From: Alphaproteobacteria bacterium
Lineage (GTDB): Bacteria; Pseudomonadota; Alphaproteobacteria; CAAHEQ01; UBA3637
Reading direction: 5' to 3'
Assembly: GCA_015062385.1 (NCBI GenBank)
Contig: SUUT01000002.1
Span: 83,059-147,058, forward strand
DNA: 64,000 bases
The notes beneath the pieces were generated by a model. The model made no database searches. It had not been told where the DNA came from and saw nothing but the letters and a program-made list of their open reading frames with translations. Positions 1,024-48,123 of the stretch are shown here, one piece after another (position 1 is the first letter of the stretch; every line of letters starts with the position of its first letter). The position numbers were made by a program, and so were the translations under genes.

Positions 1024-2805
1024 TTACTCCACAACAGGGCATTCGCCCAAATCATTTAAGTTAAAGTACATATCCAAACAAACGCCCCACAACGGATTAC
1101 TGCCTTTGGCATCAACCGTATCGGTACAGCCTTTTGATTTAAAGTTCATATAACAATATTGTTTTCGAGGGCAATCTGTTTGAACGGATAACATTTTTTC
1201 CAAATCAGGCATTTCCATTTCACAAGACGGATTTTTATTATTCATATCGGCACAAGCCCCGTAAATAATACCCGTATAATTAGCACCGGCTGCTCCGGTA
1301 CATGTTTCTGTTGTGAATGACAGATAACAATATTGACCTTTGGGACAATCGGATATGGATTGTACCATTTCTTGTGCATCGGGTAAATTAAGAGAGCAGG
1401 ATGGATTTTTGTTATCCATAAAGGCACATACTCCATGAAGTGTTCCTGTGTGGTTTGCACCGGCGGCAGAGGTACACGTATTGTTTTTAAATGACAAATA
1501 ACAATACTGACCATTCGGACACCCTTTGCTTTCTTTGACCATTTCTCCCGAAGATGGCATATCCGTTGAGCAAGAGGGATTTTTATTGTTCATATCGGAA
1601 CAAACACCATAAATCGTTCCCGTATGGTTTGCTCCGGCAGAACTCGTACAAGAATCGTTTTTAAATGACAGATAGCAATATTGTCCGCTAGGGCATCCGT
1701 TAGATTGTGTCACCATATCCCCCTCAGAAGCCTTTTGAACGGCACAGGAAGCGTTTTTATTGTTCATATCGGTACAAACCCCATAAATGGTCTCTGCCCC
1801 CGTTGCAGACACGCTGGAACTGCAATCTGACGTTTTAAATGATAAATAACAATATTGTCCACTGGGGCAAGCAGTTCCGATAGTCATATTAAGTGTTTCT
1901 CCGTCTGATGCCAATCCGTTTGTATAAGAGCAATTTGTAGTCAATGTCATTGTATCTGATGAAACAGTAAAAGCACAATTTGTATGCATACCCATTGTTT
2001 CATCCGAAACTTCATAAGAACAATTTGTACTTAACGTCATTGTTTCATCGGATATCCGATAGGAACAGCCGGCTTTTCCTTTCATTTCGGCATTTTCAAA
2101 GCTGTATTTGCAAAAACCATCCGATTCGGGACATTCATCAACATTTTGTCCGCAAATTGTATTGCCTCCACAGCACCAACGCCGTTCTCCGGACCAGCAT
2201 TCACTTTCATTTTCGGCATCACAAATCGGATTGCAAAATGTGCGGGATTCGTTGGGTTCTTTTCCGACAGGACATTCATAACAAGTCCCCGTATTGGCAT
2301 TGCAGTATCCGCCTTCCGATTCAACACATTCTTCGTTTGTTTCACAATCTTTACCGGGGGCACGTGTGCCGTTAAAGGCAAAAATAATATCCATTGGTTC
2401 CGGTGTACAACTTGTTACGGCACCGATCGTTGTTTCTTCATGTTCAATTTCTTGATAAAAAGATAATTGTTCATTGTTGCCCAGTTGCATAATCAGTTGG
2501 CACATTTCATTATCTATATTTTCAACAAGAACAAAGGTATCGCCGTCTTCATCTTTTCCGGTAAACATGTTGTATCCGCATTTGGGGGTAAAATCAACCG
2601 GTGTCCAATTGGTTTCTGCCTCGTTAACCCCTTGTGCATTGGCATAGGCGATATGTGCTTCTTGGATTAATAAATTAGCGGTATATTTTTTCATCGCATA
2701 GCGATATCCTAATATCCCGCAGACAGATAAAATACCGATAATGGCTAAAACCCCTAGAATTTCTACCATACTTCGTCCGGCTTGTGCGTTCTTGTATTTT
2801 TTCAT
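1024..2805 (-). CDS. Prepilin-like Cys-rich surface protein with tandem repeats
   Basis: N-terminus GRSMVEILGVLAIIGILSVCGILGYRYAM is a type IV prepilin-like signal (G|xxxxE plus hydrophobic helix). C-terminal half has about five ~58-60 aa repeats 'CPxGQYCYLSFK...C...GTIYGVCxDMNNKNPSC'. Confidence 0.8.
   Translation of the reverse strand: MKKYKNAQAGRSMVEILGVLAIIGILSVCGILGYRYAMKKYTANLLIQEAHIAYANAQGVNEAETNWTPVDFTPKCGYNMFTGKDEDGDTFVLVENIDNEMCQLIMQLGNNEQLSFYQEIEHEETTIGAVTSCTPEPMDIIFAFNGTRAPGKDCETNEECVESEGGYCNANTGTCYECPVGKEPNESRTFCNPICDAENESECWSGERRWCCGGNTICGQNVDECPESDGFCKYSFENAEMKGKAGCSYRISDETMTLSTNCSYEVSDETMGMHTNCAFTVSSDTMTLTTNCSYTNGLASDGETLNMTIGTACPSGQYCYLSFKTSDCSSSVSATGAETIYGVCTDMNNKNASCAVQKASEGDMVTQSNGCPSGQYCYLSFKNDSCTSSAGANHTGTIYGVCSDMNNKNPSCSTDMPSSGEMVKESKGCPNGQYCYLSFKNNTCTSAAGANHTGTLHGVCAFMDNKNPSCSLNLPDAQEMVQSISDCPKGQYCYLSFTTETCTGAAGANYTGIIYGACADMNNKNPSCEMEMPDLEKMLSVQTDCPRKQYCYMNFKSKGCTDTVDAKGSNPLWGVCLDMYFNLNDLGECPVVE
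1060..1875 (-). repeat. About five tandem ~175-bp coding repeats within the 593-aa protein
   Basis: The 'caatattg' core (encoding QYCY) recurs about every 175 bp near 1153, 1327, 1503, 1677 and 1853. Confidence 0.8.
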
Positions 2806-2842: not shown

Positions 2843-2997
2843 AATAAAAGGTACGTATAATTGCAACATTTTTTTTCACATTTTTGAATTTTTTTTGATT
2901 TTTACTAACTAATTCAATAAAAACAATAATTTTTCATTTTTGAAAAAAGTCGATTTTTGAGATTCGAAGCGGGAAAAAAAGGTACGTTTTTGTGCAT
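2843..2997 (+). repeat. Dispersed ~155-bp element, copy A (flipped relative to its downstream gene)
   Basis: Plus strand AATAAAAGGTACGTATAATTGCAACATTTTTTTTCAC...GATTCGAAGCGGGAAAAAAAGGTACGTTTTTGTGCA. Reverse complement matches copies at 25600 and 47971. Confidence 0.75.
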
Positions 2998-10392: not shown

Positions 10393-10563
10393 TTTTACAG
10401 TGTTTTTAATTGTTTTGAAGATTACCGCCTCTATTTTAGGGGCGGTAATTGTATGAAAATGATAAAATAAAAAAAACATCCGAAACGAATCAATTTTTTG
10501 AATTTTTATATAAATTTTAAATTGATTCGTTTTTGTTTTATATGGTTTTACTATAAGTTTGAC

Positions 10564-10720
10564 TATAAAAAAAGGTACGTTAAAACGCAACATTTTTTTC
10601 ACTTTTTGAGATTTTTTTTTAATTTGAAATAAATTATTATTTTAAAAGGATTTTAGTTTATTTTTATAAATCAACGTGTTTTGCAAAAAGCATCTGCAAA
10701 AAAAGATACCTTTTTTTATA
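10564..10720 (+). repeat. Dispersed ~157-bp element, copy C, with perfect 14-bp terminal inverted repeats
   Basis: TATAAAAAAAGGTA at 10564-10577 and TACCTTTTTTTATA at 10707-10720; interior CGTTAAAACGCAACATTTTTTTCACTTTTTGAG resembles copy A. Confidence 0.75.
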
Positions 10721-10964
10721 CTGTCTTTTGTTAAATGAGTACAGAAGCATAAGATGTTATGTTTGAAAAACCAAAAGGGCGGGAGTAGTATGAAAATAAA
10801 AAAAATAACACATTGAAAATAAATATTTTTTTCAGCATATTAAAATATGTCATAAAAATGCAAAATAATGGTTGACATTTTAAATAGGATTTAATAGGCT
10901 GAAAGAAGCTTCTTCTATGAAGTGAGGAACTTATGATTAATTTTTTAACTAGAGTGAGGTATTT

Positions 10965-13415
10965 ATGAGGTATTCAAATACAGCAATTACAGAACTTTCA
11001 AAAAAATATCGTACAATTTTGAAAAAATGTGCCATTTTAAATGCAGTTGCATTATTGGCTTTATCCACACCGGCTATGGCAGCTCAATATGGTATTGCCG
11101 TGACAGAAAGTAGAGTATACACAGAATCTGCTTTTACAGGTGATGATGTTGGTATTTATTCGGGTAGTGGTGCAACTGGTACATTTACAGCCGAAGATAT
11201 TACTGTTACAGACAGTTTAAGAGGGATTCTTGCAAAAGGAACAGAATCAAAAATTGTTATTGGTAGTGCAAGTGATTATACCAATAGTTTAACCATTTCT
11301 AATAACAATACAGAATCCGGAATTCATGATCGAGGTATTCGTGCCGAAAATGGTGGAACAGTTGAAGTTTATACGGATAATTTAACAATTACCGGTACAG
11401 ATACCTCTTATGCATTACATGCAAGAGGTGGGGACGATTCTTTAACAACAAAAATTGTAGTGAATGCTAAAAATGTAGATATTACAAGCAAAGATTCTCC
11501 AGCAGTTAATGCAAATAATACAGGAATCAGACCGGAAGAAACTTATGCAACAACACAAGTTGATATTGTAGCAGATAATATTAATATTTCTTCTGATACA
11601 ACGGCAGTTTCTGCTATGAGCCAAGGAATTGTTAATATTACGGGTAACACAGTTTTAAATGCTGAAAACGCTATTTTAGGTCGTGGTGATGCACAAATTA
11701 ACATTAACACAACCGACTTGACTAAAACGTTGGTAATGAATGGTAATATTGATTTTGATTATGATAAAAAAACATCAGACTCTGCTATTAATGCTTTCAT
11801 TAATGTTAATTTGAATGGTACTTCTTCTTCATGGACGGGAAATACTGTTAAAAGTTGGGGTGATGATGAACCAGAAGATCCTAATAAGTTAATTGTTTCT
11901 GATGCAACAGTTACACTTAATGACGGGGCAACTTGGAATGCAACAAAAATTACAGCAACTGATACAATGAAACAAACCGCATTAAACTACTTAATTGTTA
12001 AAAAAGGTACAATTAATGTTGCAGACGGGGCCACTGCTTTGGTTGGCGATTTAACGGTAACGGACTTAACGTTAAATGGTATGGTTGAAGCTGATACAGC
12101 TACATTTGAATCCGGTTCAAAATTAACAACTGCTTTGGATGATACTGTTAAAATTAAAGCTAAAAAAGTTACAATTGGTGATGGTTCCACATTGAACTTA
12201 ATCATTGATGGTGCCGTTGAAGAAAAATCATATAACTTTATTGATTCCGCAGATATTACAGGAGCCTTTACAATTGCTGATAACGGTTTATATTCTTTCA
12301 CACAAGATGAAACTGGTACTATTACGGCAAGTCAGAAAAATGCTGATGAAATTGCAGCAGATACAGGGGCTTCTGCTCAGGAAACAAGTGCTTTATTAGC
12401 AATGATTAATGCGGATGGATCAAGTACGGAACAAGGTAATGCATTAGCTTCTGCTTTGTCAACGGCAATGCAATCCGGTGATGCAGCAGTTGCTGTTCAG
12501 GCTGCAAAAGAAGCTGCTCCGACAACAGCACAAGTTGTGACAGGTTTAACCAAAGAAACTGCCAATACAATTGCACAAGTTTCTACGACTCGTTTAGATT
12601 CTATTAAAGGAACAAGCGGTGGTGATACGGTAACAGGGGCCGGTTTGTGGGTTCAAGGATTATATAACCATACAAAACAAAGCACAACATCTTCATCTGA
12701 TGGATTCAAAGCAAATTCACGTGGTTTGGCTGTTGGTGCCGATGCAGAATTATCCGAAACAACAACGTTAGGTTTGGGGTATGGTTATATGGAAACAGAT
12801 GCTGATACTACCGGTCGTGATATTACAGTTGATAGTCATAATGTTTTTGTTTACGGAGAATATCAACCGTCTGAATGGTATGTTAATGCTGTTTTAAATT
12901 ATGGGTTCTCTAAATACAAGGAAGATAAGGCTCCATTGGGTGTTGCATTAAAGAGCAAGTATGATGTTAAATCATATGGAGCAAGCATTATGACCGGTTA
13001 TGATTTTGATAACGGTATTACACCGGAAGCAGGCTTGCGTTATTTGATTGTTGATGCTGAATCATACAATGATGGTGCACAAGACATTAATTCTAAAAAG
13101 AATGATATCTTAACAGCCGTTGCCGGTGTTAAATATACAGCTAATGTCAAAGCTGACAAAGCAATTTTAAAACCGACTGTTCGTTTAGCCGCAACATACG
13201 ACATTGTTTCTGATAGTGATGAAGCAAGTGTTCAAGTTTTGGGTGGTGGTAATTATACCATTAACGGACAGCGTTTACATCGCTTTGGTGTAGAAGCCGG
13301 AGCAGGTGTGACAGCAACTGTTAACAACTGGGATTTCACATTAGAATATAACGGTGCTTTCAGAGAAGATTATCGCTCACAAGGGGGTATCGTCAGAGCA
13401 AGATACAATTTCTAA
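10965..13415 (+). CDS. Autotransporter outer membrane protein (passenger plus beta-barrel)
   Basis: Signal-like N-terminus (..LNAVALLALSTPAMAAQYG); T/S/N-rich repetitive passenger; C-terminal barrel 'GLWVQGLYNHTKQ...GYDFDNGITPEAGLRY...RARYNF' ending in Phe. Confidence 0.9.
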   Translation: MRYSNTAITELSKKYRTILKKCAILNAVALLALSTPAMAAQYGIAVTESRVYTESAFTGDDVGIYSGSGATGTFTAEDITVTDSLRGILAKGTESKIVIGSASDYTNSLTISNNNTESGIHDRGIRAENGGTVEVYTDNLTITGTDTSYALHARGGDDSLTTKIVVNAKNVDITSKDSPAVNANNTGIRPEETYATTQVDIVADNINISSDTTAVSAMSQGIVNITGNTVLNAENAILGRGDAQININTTDLTKTLVMNGNIDFDYDKKTSDSAINAFINVNLNGTSSSWTGNTVKSWGDDEPEDPNKLIVSDATVTLNDGATWNATKITATDTMKQTALNYLIVKKGTINVADGATALVGDLTVTDLTLNGMVEADTATFESGSKLTTALDDTVKIKAKKVTIGDGSTLNLIIDGAVEEKSYNFIDSADITGAFTIADNGLYSFTQDETGTITASQKNADEIAADTGASAQETSALLAMINADGSSTEQGNALASALSTAMQSGDAAVAVQAAKEAAPTTAQVVTGLTKETANTIAQVSTTRLDSIKGTSGGDTVTGAGLWVQGLYNHTKQSTTSSSDGFKANSRGLAVGADAELSETTTLGLGYGYMETDADTTGRDITVDSHNVFVYGEYQPSEWYVNAVLNYGFSKYKEDKAPLGVALKSKYDVKSYGASIMTGYDFDNGITPEAGLRYLIVDAESYNDGAQDINSKKNDILTAVAGVKYTANVKADKAILKPTVRLAATYDIVSDSDEASVQVLGGGNYTINGQRLHRFGVEAGAGVTATVNNWDFTLEYNGAFREDYRSQGGIVRARYNF

Positions 13416-23345: not shown

Positions 23346-25559
23346 TTAATCTATAACACAAAGTGCAGGATAGGAATTTGTCGTATAAGTACCATCTATA
23401 TTGCCGAATTCCAGTCCTACCTGATATACTTCGCAAGATGTATATACTTTATCAAGCCAGTAAAAATCATCTCCAACTTTACCAAAGGCTTCCCATAATC
23501 CGGTTACAATTTTTGATATATTATCCTTAACATATGCGTTTGATCCAATTGCTTTATAATGACAATATCCCCATCGACCTAACCCGTCCATGCAATGCAT
23601 ATCATTTGAACCGGCAACTCGTCCGCCAATAGCTTCACAAAAACGATTAGCACTCCACCAAGTCATTTCTAAATTTGGAGTTCCATAAAAAGTTTTTGTT
23701 CCCGTCACTTCTCTGCCATAACCGTCATAGTGGGTCCAGTTGATAGTTGCTTGAATTGCATCATCTTTTGCTACACGACAAATTCCCGTATCAATAAAAG
23801 GTCCTTCAAATTCTATACCACAAGCATATCCCTTCTTTTGATAGCAATAATATCCGTATTTTCCGTCTTTGTTACAATCGGCATTTGTTGTGCAATATTC
23901 AACACATTCTTTTCCATTCCAACGTGTTCCGTCCAAGCAAGGTACACACACATTCATTTTTAAATCACAGGTTGGTTTTGTTTCATCTATACAATGAGTA
24001 TTATTTAAGCATTCGGAACACAAACCCGTATCGGCACAATATAAACCCATATCACAATCATCATTTGTTTCACAAGATGAACAAGTTCCGTTTTTACAAA
24101 TATTTTTACCAATTATTTCAGTGCAATCATCATGAGATAAACACAATACTTGTTCTTCAGGTTCAATCCCTTCAATAATCGCATCATCAACACATAAAGC
24201 ATAATATCCCTCTTCCAGAATTTCTCCATCTATATTTCCGTATTCCAAACCGATACCATATCCGGAACACTCATCAATAATATTAGAAAACCAATACCAA
24301 CCACCATTTAATGCGGTTTTTAATTTTGTTACAACTGTTGAAATATTACCATCTTGCCAAGCATTTGATCCGATATATTTTTTATGACAATAGCCCCAAC
24401 TTCCCACATTATCTGCACATTGAAAATCTGTTGTGGTCACTTGTCTTTTTCCAATGCTTTTACAAAAACGATTGGCACTATGCCAAGTCATTTCTAACTC
24501 CGGAACGGCATAAAAATTTGTTGTTCCATATGTTATTAAGCCTTTTGAGTCTGTTTTGTTCCATTTAACAGTTACTTTTTTCATATCATCTTCTGCAAAA
24601 TGGCATTCTCCTTTATCTTCACGAGGTCCATAAAATTCATATCCGGAACAAGCATATCCTAGTGCATTATAACAGTAATAACCTGTTCTGCCGTTTTTGT
24701 TACACTCCTCATTTGTTTTGCAAGGTAAAACACACCGTTTTCCATTCCATTTTTCTCCATTCGGACAAGGTTCACACGTACTTGTTTTTGTATCGCAATA
24801 AGGTTTAGAGGCATCTTTACAATCTGCATAACTTTGACACTCTACACATCCTTCCGCTGTTTCAATAGGTGTTTGACGTGGACATTGACATATGTTATCA
24901 ATCCATTCTTTGGGCGGATAACACCACTCACAATTGTCCCCAAATTCATATTCATGCCGACAAACACATCCGTATGTCCCATCATCTTTTTGTCGCCATG
25001 CCATTTTGTCCGGACAAGATTGTGGTTCACTGCTTGGATTGTCATCCGGCATATCCGAACCACCGCTTCCGCCATTTCCACCACTACTTCCCCCATCAAA
25101 GTGAGAACCGGATTCAACAGTCGGAGTTGCATTAAAGGAAAACACCATATTTGTTTTGCTGTTTGGGTTTCCGCACATTCTTGTTAAAATAGAAATACCC
25201 ATCTCATTTAAAATGCTTTCTCTTTGCAGGAGTTTTTCACAAACTTTATAAACCACTTTAAATGCTGTTACTTGATAATTACCATCAACGAGCTTGACCA
25301 TAGATTTTTTATCATCCGGTGTATATTCAGGTAGGGCAGATTTTAAAAACCGATTAACCTCCAATGCATGAGAAGCCCGAGAATCCGTTTGAGCCAATGT
25401 TTTAGCCTTGCCAAGAACATCTTGAATTTTACCGGATTGATAGGCTGTTAAGGCATATTGATACATACCGACACCGGCAACGGACAAAACGCCGATAATT
25501 GCCAATACACCTAGCATTTCTACCATACTCCGACCGGTTTCATTGATTTTGATTTGCAT
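23346..25559 (-). CDS. Prepilin-like Cys-rich protein with two copies of a CLec/DUF1566-like C-terminal module
   Basis: 'GRSMVEMLGVLAIIGVLSVAGVGMYQYAL' prepilin-like helix; EGF-like Cys segments; two homologous modules ending 'CSGYGIGLEYGNIDGEILEEGYYALCVDD' and 'CEVYQVGLEFGNIDGTYTTNSYPALCVID'. Confidence 0.82.
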   Translation of the reverse strand: MQIKINETGRSMVEMLGVLAIIGVLSVAGVGMYQYALTAYQSGKIQDVLGKAKTLAQTDSRASHALEVNRFLKSALPEYTPDDKKSMVKLVDGNYQVTAFKVVYKVCEKLLQRESILNEMGISILTRMCGNPNSKTNMVFSFNATPTVESGSHFDGGSSGGNGGSGGSDMPDDNPSSEPQSCPDKMAWRQKDDGTYGCVCRHEYEFGDNCEWCYPPKEWIDNICQCPRQTPIETAEGCVECQSYADCKDASKPYCDTKTSTCEPCPNGEKWNGKRCVLPCKTNEECNKNGRTGYYCYNALGYACSGYEFYGPREDKGECHFAEDDMKKVTVKWNKTDSKGLITYGTTNFYAVPELEMTWHSANRFCKSIGKRQVTTTDFQCADNVGSWGYCHKKYIGSNAWQDGNISTVVTKLKTALNGGWYWFSNIIDECSGYGIGLEYGNIDGEILEEGYYALCVDDAIIEGIEPEEQVLCLSHDDCTEIIGKNICKNGTCSSCETNDDCDMGLYCADTGLCSECLNNTHCIDETKPTCDLKMNVCVPCLDGTRWNGKECVEYCTTNADCNKDGKYGYYCYQKKGYACGIEFEGPFIDTGICRVAKDDAIQATINWTHYDGYGREVTGTKTFYGTPNLEMTWWSANRFCEAIGGRVAGSNDMHCMDGLGRWGYCHYKAIGSNAYVKDNISKIVTGLWEAFGKVGDDFYWLDKVYTSCEVYQVGLEFGNIDGTYTTNSYPALCVID

Positions 25560-25599
25560 GTTTTCTCCTCACTTCATAAAGTTGCATTTATAAAGTGAG

Positions 25600-25753
25600 T
25601 ATAAAAAAAGGGACCTTTTTTTCCCGCTTCGAATCGGCAAAATCGGATTTTGTAAAAAATAAAAGATTATTGTTTGAGTTGAATAAGTTATCTAAAATCA
25701 AAAAAAATGCCAAAATGTGAAAAAAAGTGTTGCATTTATACGTCCCTTTTATT
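25600..25753 (-). repeat. Dispersed ~154-bp element, copy B
   Basis: TATAAAAAAAGGGACCTTTTTTTCCCGCTTCGAATC...GAAAAAAAGTGTTGCATTTATACGTCCCTTTTATT; inverted AAAAGGGAC ends; starts 41 bp upstream of the 25559 ATG. Confidence 0.75.
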
Positions 25754-25839
25754 GCAGATAGATATTCTTACATTAAGATATTACTTCTTTATAGATATTC
25801 CCCACCAAACCGGGGGTTGTCTGTAAGGCATTAATACAA

Positions 25840-46546: not shown

Positions 46547-47932
46547 CTACTCTGTTAAGCAATAATCCACAACCTTATGAAGTTTAAAATTCATACTGCC
46601 GCAGTTATTATCACATTCATTATCCCAAAATTGAATGGTTATATCTGCCAAGCCATTAAATGTAAAATATTTAATCGGTTGATTTCTTAATGCATTTGTT
46701 ACTTGTTTAGTTGTTCCAACATTATATCCCTCACCATTTCCCACAAAATCAGAATCTTTATTAATAATATATCCTAAATTTTTTGTACCCTCAAATACAT
46801 ATGTTGCAAAACCGACCCGCTTCGTCTTACAATTATAATAATGGTATCCATCAACCCATTCAAAATAATATGTCCCTTTTAGTTTACCTAAGTTATTTGT
46901 TGTAATACGGCACTCCCAAACAGAACTATTAATTCCGGTTGAAGCAATATCCATTTCAACCACATCTTCTGTTTTACAAACACATTCGCCATTTTGATTG
47001 GGTTCTAATTCATATTTTGATGTATCACAATAACACACACATGTTTCCCCATCCTGAATCTGTCCCGTTGGACAAGATGTTGCACACGGCGTACACATTT
47101 TTGTTATTGCATCCCAATGTATTTTATCTGTCGGACAAGATTCACACATATTGTTTGTTCCGCATACCGGAGTCGGATTAGCACAATCATCATTCGTTAA
47201 GCATTCCACACACTTTTCATCTTTCCAAATCGGAGAGAAATCCGGACAGCGACACATTACTTCATCTTCAAACCATTCTTTGGGAGGATAACATCGTTCA
47301 CAATTATCCCCGAACTCATATTCATGCCGACAAATACATCCGTATGTACCGTCTTCTTTTTGTCGCCATACCATTTTATCGGGGCAGGTTTCCGGTTCAA
47401 TATTTGGATTATCTATATCCGGCAGATTCGAACTCCCGCTTCCGCTATTTCCGCCCCCATTTCCTCCGCCAAAGTGAGAACCGGATTCAAATGTCGGTGT
47501 TGCATCAAAGGAAAATACCATGCTTGTTTTATTGTTTGGGTTTCCACACGTTTTTGTTAAAATTGAAATACCCATATCATTCAATATACCTTCCTTTTGA
47601 AAGAGCTTTTCACAAATTTTATGTGTCATCTTAAATGCCGTTACCTGATAATTGCCGTCAACCAATTTAACCATAGACTTTTTATCATCCGGCGTATATT
47701 CGGAAAGTGCTGACTTAATAAATCGATTGACTTCTAAGGCATGTGAAGCCCGAGAATCTGTTTGTGCCAATGTTTTGGCTTTTCCGAGAACATCCTGCAC
47801 TTTGCCGGCTTGATAAGCCGTTAACGCATATTGATAGGTTGCAACACCCCCAACGGATAATACCCCGATAATTGCCAGAACCCCCAGCATTTCCACCATT
47901 GAACGACCAAGTTCATTTATTTTAGTTTGCAT
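46547..47932 (-). CDS. Prepilin-like Cys-rich surface protein (461 aa)
   Basis: 'GRSMVEMLGVLAIIGVLSVGGVATYQYALTAYQAGKVQDVLGKAKTLAQTDSRASHALEVNRF' shared with the 737-aa protein; different C-terminal domain. Confidence 0.8.
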   Translation of the reverse strand: MQTKINELGRSMVEMLGVLAIIGVLSVGGVATYQYALTAYQAGKVQDVLGKAKTLAQTDSRASHALEVNRFIKSALSEYTPDDKKSMVKLVDGNYQVTAFKMTHKICEKLFQKEGILNDMGISILTKTCGNPNNKTSMVFSFDATPTFESGSHFGGGNGGGNSGSGSSNLPDIDNPNIEPETCPDKMVWRQKEDGTYGCICRHEYEFGDNCERCYPPKEWFEDEVMCRCPDFSPIWKDEKCVECLTNDDCANPTPVCGTNNMCESCPTDKIHWDAITKMCTPCATSCPTGQIQDGETCVCYCDTSKYELEPNQNGECVCKTEDVVEMDIASTGINSSVWECRITTNNLGKLKGTYYFEWVDGYHYYNCKTKRVGFATYVFEGTKNLGYIINKDSDFVGNGEGYNVGTTKQVTNALRNQPIKYFTFNGLADITIQFWDNECDNNCGSMNFKLHKVVDYCLTE

Positions 47933-47970: not shown

Positions 47971-48123
47971 TATAAAAAAAGGGACCTTTTTTTCCCTATT
48001 CAAAATAGAAAAATCTGATTTTTACAGAAATGAAAGATTATTGTTTTAATTTAATAAGTTAATTAAAATCAAAAAAAATGCTAAAAAGTGAAAAAAATTG
48101 TTGCATTTATACGTCCCTTTTAT
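47971..48123 (-). repeat. Dispersed ~153-bp element, copy D
   Basis: TATAAAAAAAGGGACCTTTTTTTCCC...GAAAAAAATTGTTGCATTTATACGTCCCTTTTATT; near-identical to copy B ends; 39 bp upstream of the 47932 ATG. Confidence 0.75.

Follow-up and report, generated by a model that had tools for sequence, protein, structure and literature searches.

Probable Invertible Promoter Switches Upstream of Roughly 100 Prepilin-Like Genes in an Uncultured Gut Alphaproteobacterium

In the Escherichia coli fimS switch, an invertible promoter before pilus genes, the tyrosine recombinases FimB and FimE act at one locus, and the whole promoter lies inside the inverted segment. The invertases Hin and Gin each serve one segment and use 26-bp dyad sites (hix sites) with a 2-bp centre. 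A one-base change in the core blocks Hin ligation in the inverted orientation (PMC4817059). In Bacteroides fragilis, 13 inverted regions, seven of which are capsule promoters, belong to the master serine DNA invertase Mpi (PMC4747536), and PhaseFinder analysis of a 125-strain gut community reported up to 181 invertons per genome, with related groups of 2 to 72 members (PMC11892184). Among open-licence papers, we found no literature on invertons in Alphaproteobacteria.

Here we analysed a 64,000-nucleotide stretch of DNA (the window) from the 1.81-Mb genome of an uncultured gut alphaproteobacterium (G000; 45 contigs, 99% complete), in which a preliminary description had noted four copies (A to D) of a ~155-bp promoter-like element. 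We consider it very likely that this element is an invertible promoter switch (inverton) with a split promoter, driven by a serine recombinase, probably of the Mpi family, and serving about 100 prepilin-like genes. It resembles the B. fragilis Mpi system in that the candidate enzyme belongs to the same NCBIfam serine recombinase family and in having, by inference here, many dispersed promoters of surface molecules; the Hin and Gin systems in its 26-bp dyad sites with a 2-bp centre; fimS in placing an invertible promoter before pilus-type genes; and the gut invertons in being an intergenic switch bounded by inverted repeats near surface genes. In contrast to the 13 regions and capsule operons of B. 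fragilis, there are at least 110 copies here, in an alphaproteobacterium and before prepilin-like genes, and only a part of the promoter seems to be inverted. Besides, the copies are spread genome-wide, unlike the single segment of Hin or Gin, and they form one group of at least 110 in a single genome, compared with 2 to 72 for the inverton groups. The site core also differs from what we take to be the B. fragilis Mpi consensus. The kind of system is known from B. fragilis; what seems to be new is its scale, the lineage in which it occurs, the pilin repertoire that it serves, and the split promoter.

The four copies and their genes are arranged in the window as follows.

1024-2805, minus strand: prepilin-like gene of copy A, 593 aa
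2837-2843: -10 box TACACTC of copy A
2843-2997, minus strand: copy A, ON toward gene 1024-2805 (-35 box TTGCAA, 17-bp spacer, -10 box TACACT)
2843-2855 and 2974-2986: cores of copy A
2853-2867: GTTGCAATTATACGT of copy A
10561-10567, minus strand: -10-like box TATAGTC on one side of copy C
10564-10720, minus strand: copy C, with -10-like boxes on both sides
10577-10591, minus strand: -35 end GTTGCGTTTTAACGT of copy C, pointing away from the autotransporter gene (OFF for that gene)
10717-10723, plus strand: -10-like box TATACTG on the other side of copy C
10965-13415, plus strand: autotransporter gene downstream of copy C (beta-domain PF03797, Pfam E = 3e-41)
23346-25559, minus strand: prepilin-like gene of copy B, 737 aa
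25597-25603, minus strand: fixed -10 box TATACTC of copy B
25597-25615, minus strand: gene-side site of copy B, with core TATAAAAAAAGGGACC (25600-25615, plus strand) overlapping the fixed -10 box TATACT
25600-25753, plus strand: copy B, OFF, its A-tract/-35 end pointing away from gene 23346-25559
25729-25743, plus strand: A-tract/-35 module GTTGCATTTATACGT of copy B, within the far end (25729-25757)
25741-25757, plus strand: second core CGTCCCTTTTATTGCAG of copy B
46547-47932, minus strand: prepilin-like gene of copy D, 461 aa
47968-47974, minus strand: -10 box TATAATC of copy D
47971-48123, plus strand: copy D, OFF
48100-48114, plus strand: GTTGCATTTATACGT of copy D

The four copies first described were all recovered at these positions, and so were their inverted end AAAAGG(G/T)AC, the perfect 14-bp inverted end TATAAAAAAAGGTA of copy C, and the distances to the genes: copy A is followed after 38 bp by a prepilin-like open reading frame (ORF), copy B after 41 bp, and copy D after 39 bp, and the autotransporter ORF comes 245 bp downstream of copy C. 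Read in the direction of the gene, copy A is oriented opposite to B and D: its ...GTTGCAATTATACGTACC end adjoins the gene side, whereas B and D point this end away from the gene and have ...GAAGCGGGAAAAAAAGGTCCC at the gene side. The prepilin-like proteins of the window match PF07963 (N_methyl) at the right place, the N-terminus, with scores below the cut-off, and are presumed to be displayed on the surface. Prepilin N-terminus matches number 104 in the genome, compared with 8 to 11 in three element-free relatives and 32 in a fourth, and the genome encodes one prepilin peptidase (PF01478; contig C3, 29.6 kb). At C3:27735-29962, an element and short pilin-like genes lie together with this sole peptidase gene.

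The family extends far beyond the four copies, as the further genome search proposed in the preliminary description revealed. An nhmmer profile built from A to D and run on stretches around pattern-match places detected at least 110 copies (E = 1e-6 to 1e-37). A 29-base pattern from the -35 end had 114 genome matches at up to three mismatches (reversed control, 0), and the end motif AAAAAAAGGKMC had 213 (control, 1). After 12 copies too close to a contig end for scoring of the gene side were set aside, a prepilin-like start (GRSMVEMLGVLAIIGVLS and variants) was found within 400 bp of 88 of the 98 remaining copies, in most cases with ~75 bp between the prepilin motif and the end of the profile match. 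The proposal of a shared cis-regulatory cassette for surface proteins is supported, and copies are tied to prepilin start regions rather than scattered at random. Copies without a prepilin-like gene include that of the window autotransporter and others before ORFs judged by eye to be ankyrin-like. In wider collections of genomes and viral contigs, from which near relatives of the window may be missing, the exact element pattern had no match. Several contigs of the genome end inside an element (e.g., C2:56337, C12:3, C13:2, C19:3, and C26:100651), and such breaks are what repeats, or a sample with mixed orientations, would be expected to produce.

Each element carries the dyad site (AAAAAAAGG-TN-CC...) at both ends. 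A gap of 8 nt separates the TTGCAN -35-like box from the variable base of the centre in every one of 106 copies, and a -10 hexamer of the type TA(T/C)A(A/C)T occurs at one fixed offset outside the core, with a gap of 8 nt from core to -10 on the gene side. Because both gaps are 8 nt, joining the two boxes yields a 17-bp spacer, which was found for 92 potential and 9 present joins, and likewise in the sister species. Of the 110 copies, 93 have the -10 box opposite the -35 end, 6 have it next to that end, 3 have one on each side, and 8 have none; the box is on the gene's side in every copy with an assignable prepilin gene. When copy B was inverted in silico at the central dinucleotide, the result was TTGCAT-17-TATACT, a layout as in copy A. 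A generic sigma-70 scan gave no signal above chance and is uninformative here, since TTGCAT agrees with the -35 consensus at TTG alone.

The switch appears to carry only a part of the promoter. The invertible segment would contribute an A-tract and a TTG -35 box just inside one end, and the -10 box would stay fixed in the flank beside the gene. With the -35 end toward the gene, the two boxes would come to lie 17 bp apart and the gene would be ON; after inversion, the -35 box would give way to a GC-containing end (GAAGCGGGAAAAAAAGG), and the gene would be OFF. Control of transcription by orientation is a prediction from this geometry. In the assembly, whose orientation represents the majority state, 94 of the 110 copies are OFF, 6 are ON (A among them), and 10 were not called. 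In related species, TTGCA is often present at both ends and the A-tract is the constant difference, so that the effect of orientation may depend on the A-tract alone. In G007 to G009, the sites are AAACGTACGTTT-like and bound a segment of similar length, and in 12 of the 14 copies that could be scored, the A-tract end does not face the prepilin gene but points the other way.

A recombination signature was found in the ends themselves. For 103 copies, the left and right end sites were aligned, and each column was tested for whether the base on the left predicts that on the right. At the variable base of the dyad centre, the ends agree in 102 of 103 copies (59.8 expected; z = 10.8), and this base falls into three classes among more than 100 natural site variants in one genome. 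Other columns show a weaker excess (z up to 4.4), in the flanks or where variants are few, and position -3 has G at one end and C at the other in nearly all copies. Because the centre matches and position -3 differs, strand exchange appears to require identical bases over no more than about four positions. Such matching of the ends is characteristic of a conservative, site-specific exchange whose overlap is very short, as in serine recombinases with a 2-bp overlap. As in Hin and Gin, the end sites are dyads whose 2-bp centres match between both sites.

Both orientations are present within the genome, and among 42 copies in the examined contigs of a sister species (G004), 35 are OFF, 5 are ON, and 2 were not called. 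With locus identity defined by the flank on the non-gene side, 22 loci pair up between the two species: orientation is shared at 18, clearly inverted at 3 (C12:81018 versus L242, 92% identity over 2496 bp; C9:34312 versus L236, 90% over 2238 bp; C12:101163 versus L233, 90% over 1379 bp), and inverted on a short match at 1 (C32:17287 versus L229, 88% over 179 bp). In all four, homology starts no more than 4 bp from the element; the gene side of L236 is known from the -10 box alone, as the contig ends there. Single reads can bridge the short stretch where the flank meets the element end, so assembly errors caused by the 155-bp repeat would probably not mimic these inversions easily. Inversion between close strains had been proposed as a check, and 3 to 4 of 22 orthologous loci are inverted in the sister species; together with both orientations in one genome and the matched base at the crossover centre, this strengthens the earlier suggestion of site-specific invertibility. 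We infer that inversion probably continues in living populations.

In the proposed mechanism, the two inverted end sites would be recombined by a serine recombinase, most likely of the Mpi family. The sole intact member of this family ("master DNA invertase") in the genome is encoded near dnaA and outside the window (C26:78020-78769), and two further copies are broken. Its translation contains the serine recombinase catalytic motifs YIRVSS, SRLGRS, and ERQLISDRTR, matches PF00239 (E = 1e-30), aligns to the Gin invertase over ~190 residues, and scores 271.3 bits against NCBIfam NF009949 (cut-off, 272), compared with 264 to 269 bits for its orthologues and 276 for a more distant alphaproteobacterial paralogue. 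The gene order dnaA-hsp20-small ORF-mpi-SH3-dut is common to G000 and G006 to G008; a G009 contig (L257) has the same neighbourhood as far as the record extends, and in G004 a contig end cuts mpi, leaving the C-terminal 42 residues followed by SH3 and dut. A close mpi orthologue was found in just those congeners that carry elements, namely, G000, G004, G008 (190 pattern matches, often two per element; control, 0), G009 (171 matches), G007 (56 matches), and G006, which lay outside the pattern-search sample and has elements by weak matches. G001, G002, and G005 had no element and only more distant Mpi paralogues, and the single weak match in G003 was no element on inspection. Based on this co-occurrence and the short overlap, the Mpi-type serine recombinase near dnaA most likely inverts the elements. 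The orphan recombinase suggested in the preliminary description is most likely no neighbour of the elements but this enzyme, which would act genome-wide. Large serine recombinases on C26, one of them CcrB-like, were set aside as being of the wrong type.

The site type finds independent support in two Fibrobacterota metagenome-assembled genomes, in which mpi lies behind a short segment bounded by similar, 26- to 29-bp inverted A/T-rich dyads 82 or 103 bp apart (L267:2160-2270 and L269:2844-2975), likely a self-inverting promoter of the invertase. Near mpi in Bacteroidota loci, no such dyads were found, and elsewhere only unrelated short repeats.

A small stand-alone tyrosine recombinase could instead invert the elements, as FimB and FimE invert fimS. 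Two candidates (198 aa, C12:71 kb; 193 aa, C12:131.5 kb, next to ruvA) are of FimB/FimE size, weakly similar to tyrosine-type DNA invertases, and each encoded no more than ~3 kb from an element (at C12:74495 and at C12:134358). Neither tracks the element, however: G004 has at least 42 elements and no intact orthologue of either, and the 193-aa protein occurs at 92 to 96% identity in G001 and G005, both without the element. Furthermore, tyrosine recombinases usually need 6 to 8 bases of overlap, whereas the ends here require identity over about four at most. We therefore disfavour a FimB/FimE-type switch as quite improbable on grounds of distribution and overlap width. Less probable still, and in our view very improbable, is an element that does not invert today, either as a mobile repeat of the MITE type or as a fixed promoter region duplicated together with a prepilin gene as that gene multiplied. 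Many near-identical copies in one genome and the expansion of the gene family itself would fit such an origin, but a mobile repeat would hardly place 88 of 98 scorable copies before one gene family at a near-constant distance, and gene-and-promoter copying alone yields neither opposite orientations between fixed flanks nor inverted orthologous loci nor matched central bases. Placement, fixed promoter geometry, and the inverted orthologous loci led us to discard both versions.

A further alternative is that the elements do invert but hold the whole promoter inside the segment, the outer -10-like box being only part of a recombination half-site. The Mpi and fim switches that are well known do keep the entire promoter within the invertible segment; in the present family, most copies have a TATACG-like box immediately inward of the -35 end, and there is overlap between the outer boxes and the A/T-rich half-site. 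Yet the outer TATAAT/TATACT/TACACT box keeps a constant offset; 93 copies have it opposite the -35 end, and wherever a prepilin gene was assigned, the box is on that gene's side, whereas the inner box is not conserved in copy C or in the relatives. We regard this alternative as unlikely and prefer the split promoter.

If the split-promoter switch operates as proposed, one enzyme acting on at least 110 mostly OFF copies could give each cell a small, changing subset from a repertoire of roughly 100 prepilin-like surface proteins, and so set which few of them that cell makes. The family would then rank among the largest sets of promoter switches that one enzyme seems to operate, here in uncultured gut Alphaproteobacteria, and it suggests a way for commensals with genomes of 1.3 to 1.8 Mb to vary a large repertoire of surface proteins. 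With more than 100 site variants and three central-base classes, ordinary metagenomic reads could also show directly which sequence rules govern Mpi-type recombination and promoter switching.

Many orthologous loci combine a far-side flank that is 90 to 98% identical between the two species with a different prepilin gene on the gene side; examples with flanks of 93 to 98% identity are C9:67960/L249 (contig C8 of G004), C3:52658/L223, C12:88230/L222, and C42:60775/L224. These cases are suggestive of gene exchange at the elements or of chimeric contigs, and they could be partly misassembly, as G004 consists of 310 contigs. It is conceivable, though we would not call it probable, that the elements are shuffling points at which the same recombinase swaps whole prepilin genes between loci. 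If so, the genus would run antigenic variation by ~100 split-promoter switches plus gene exchange. At L249, 133 bp are 99% identical to the start region of the window gene of copy A, with the element oriented opposite to A. Many genomes of family f1 carry several Mpi paralogues, which suggests several parallel inversion systems with site families of their own.
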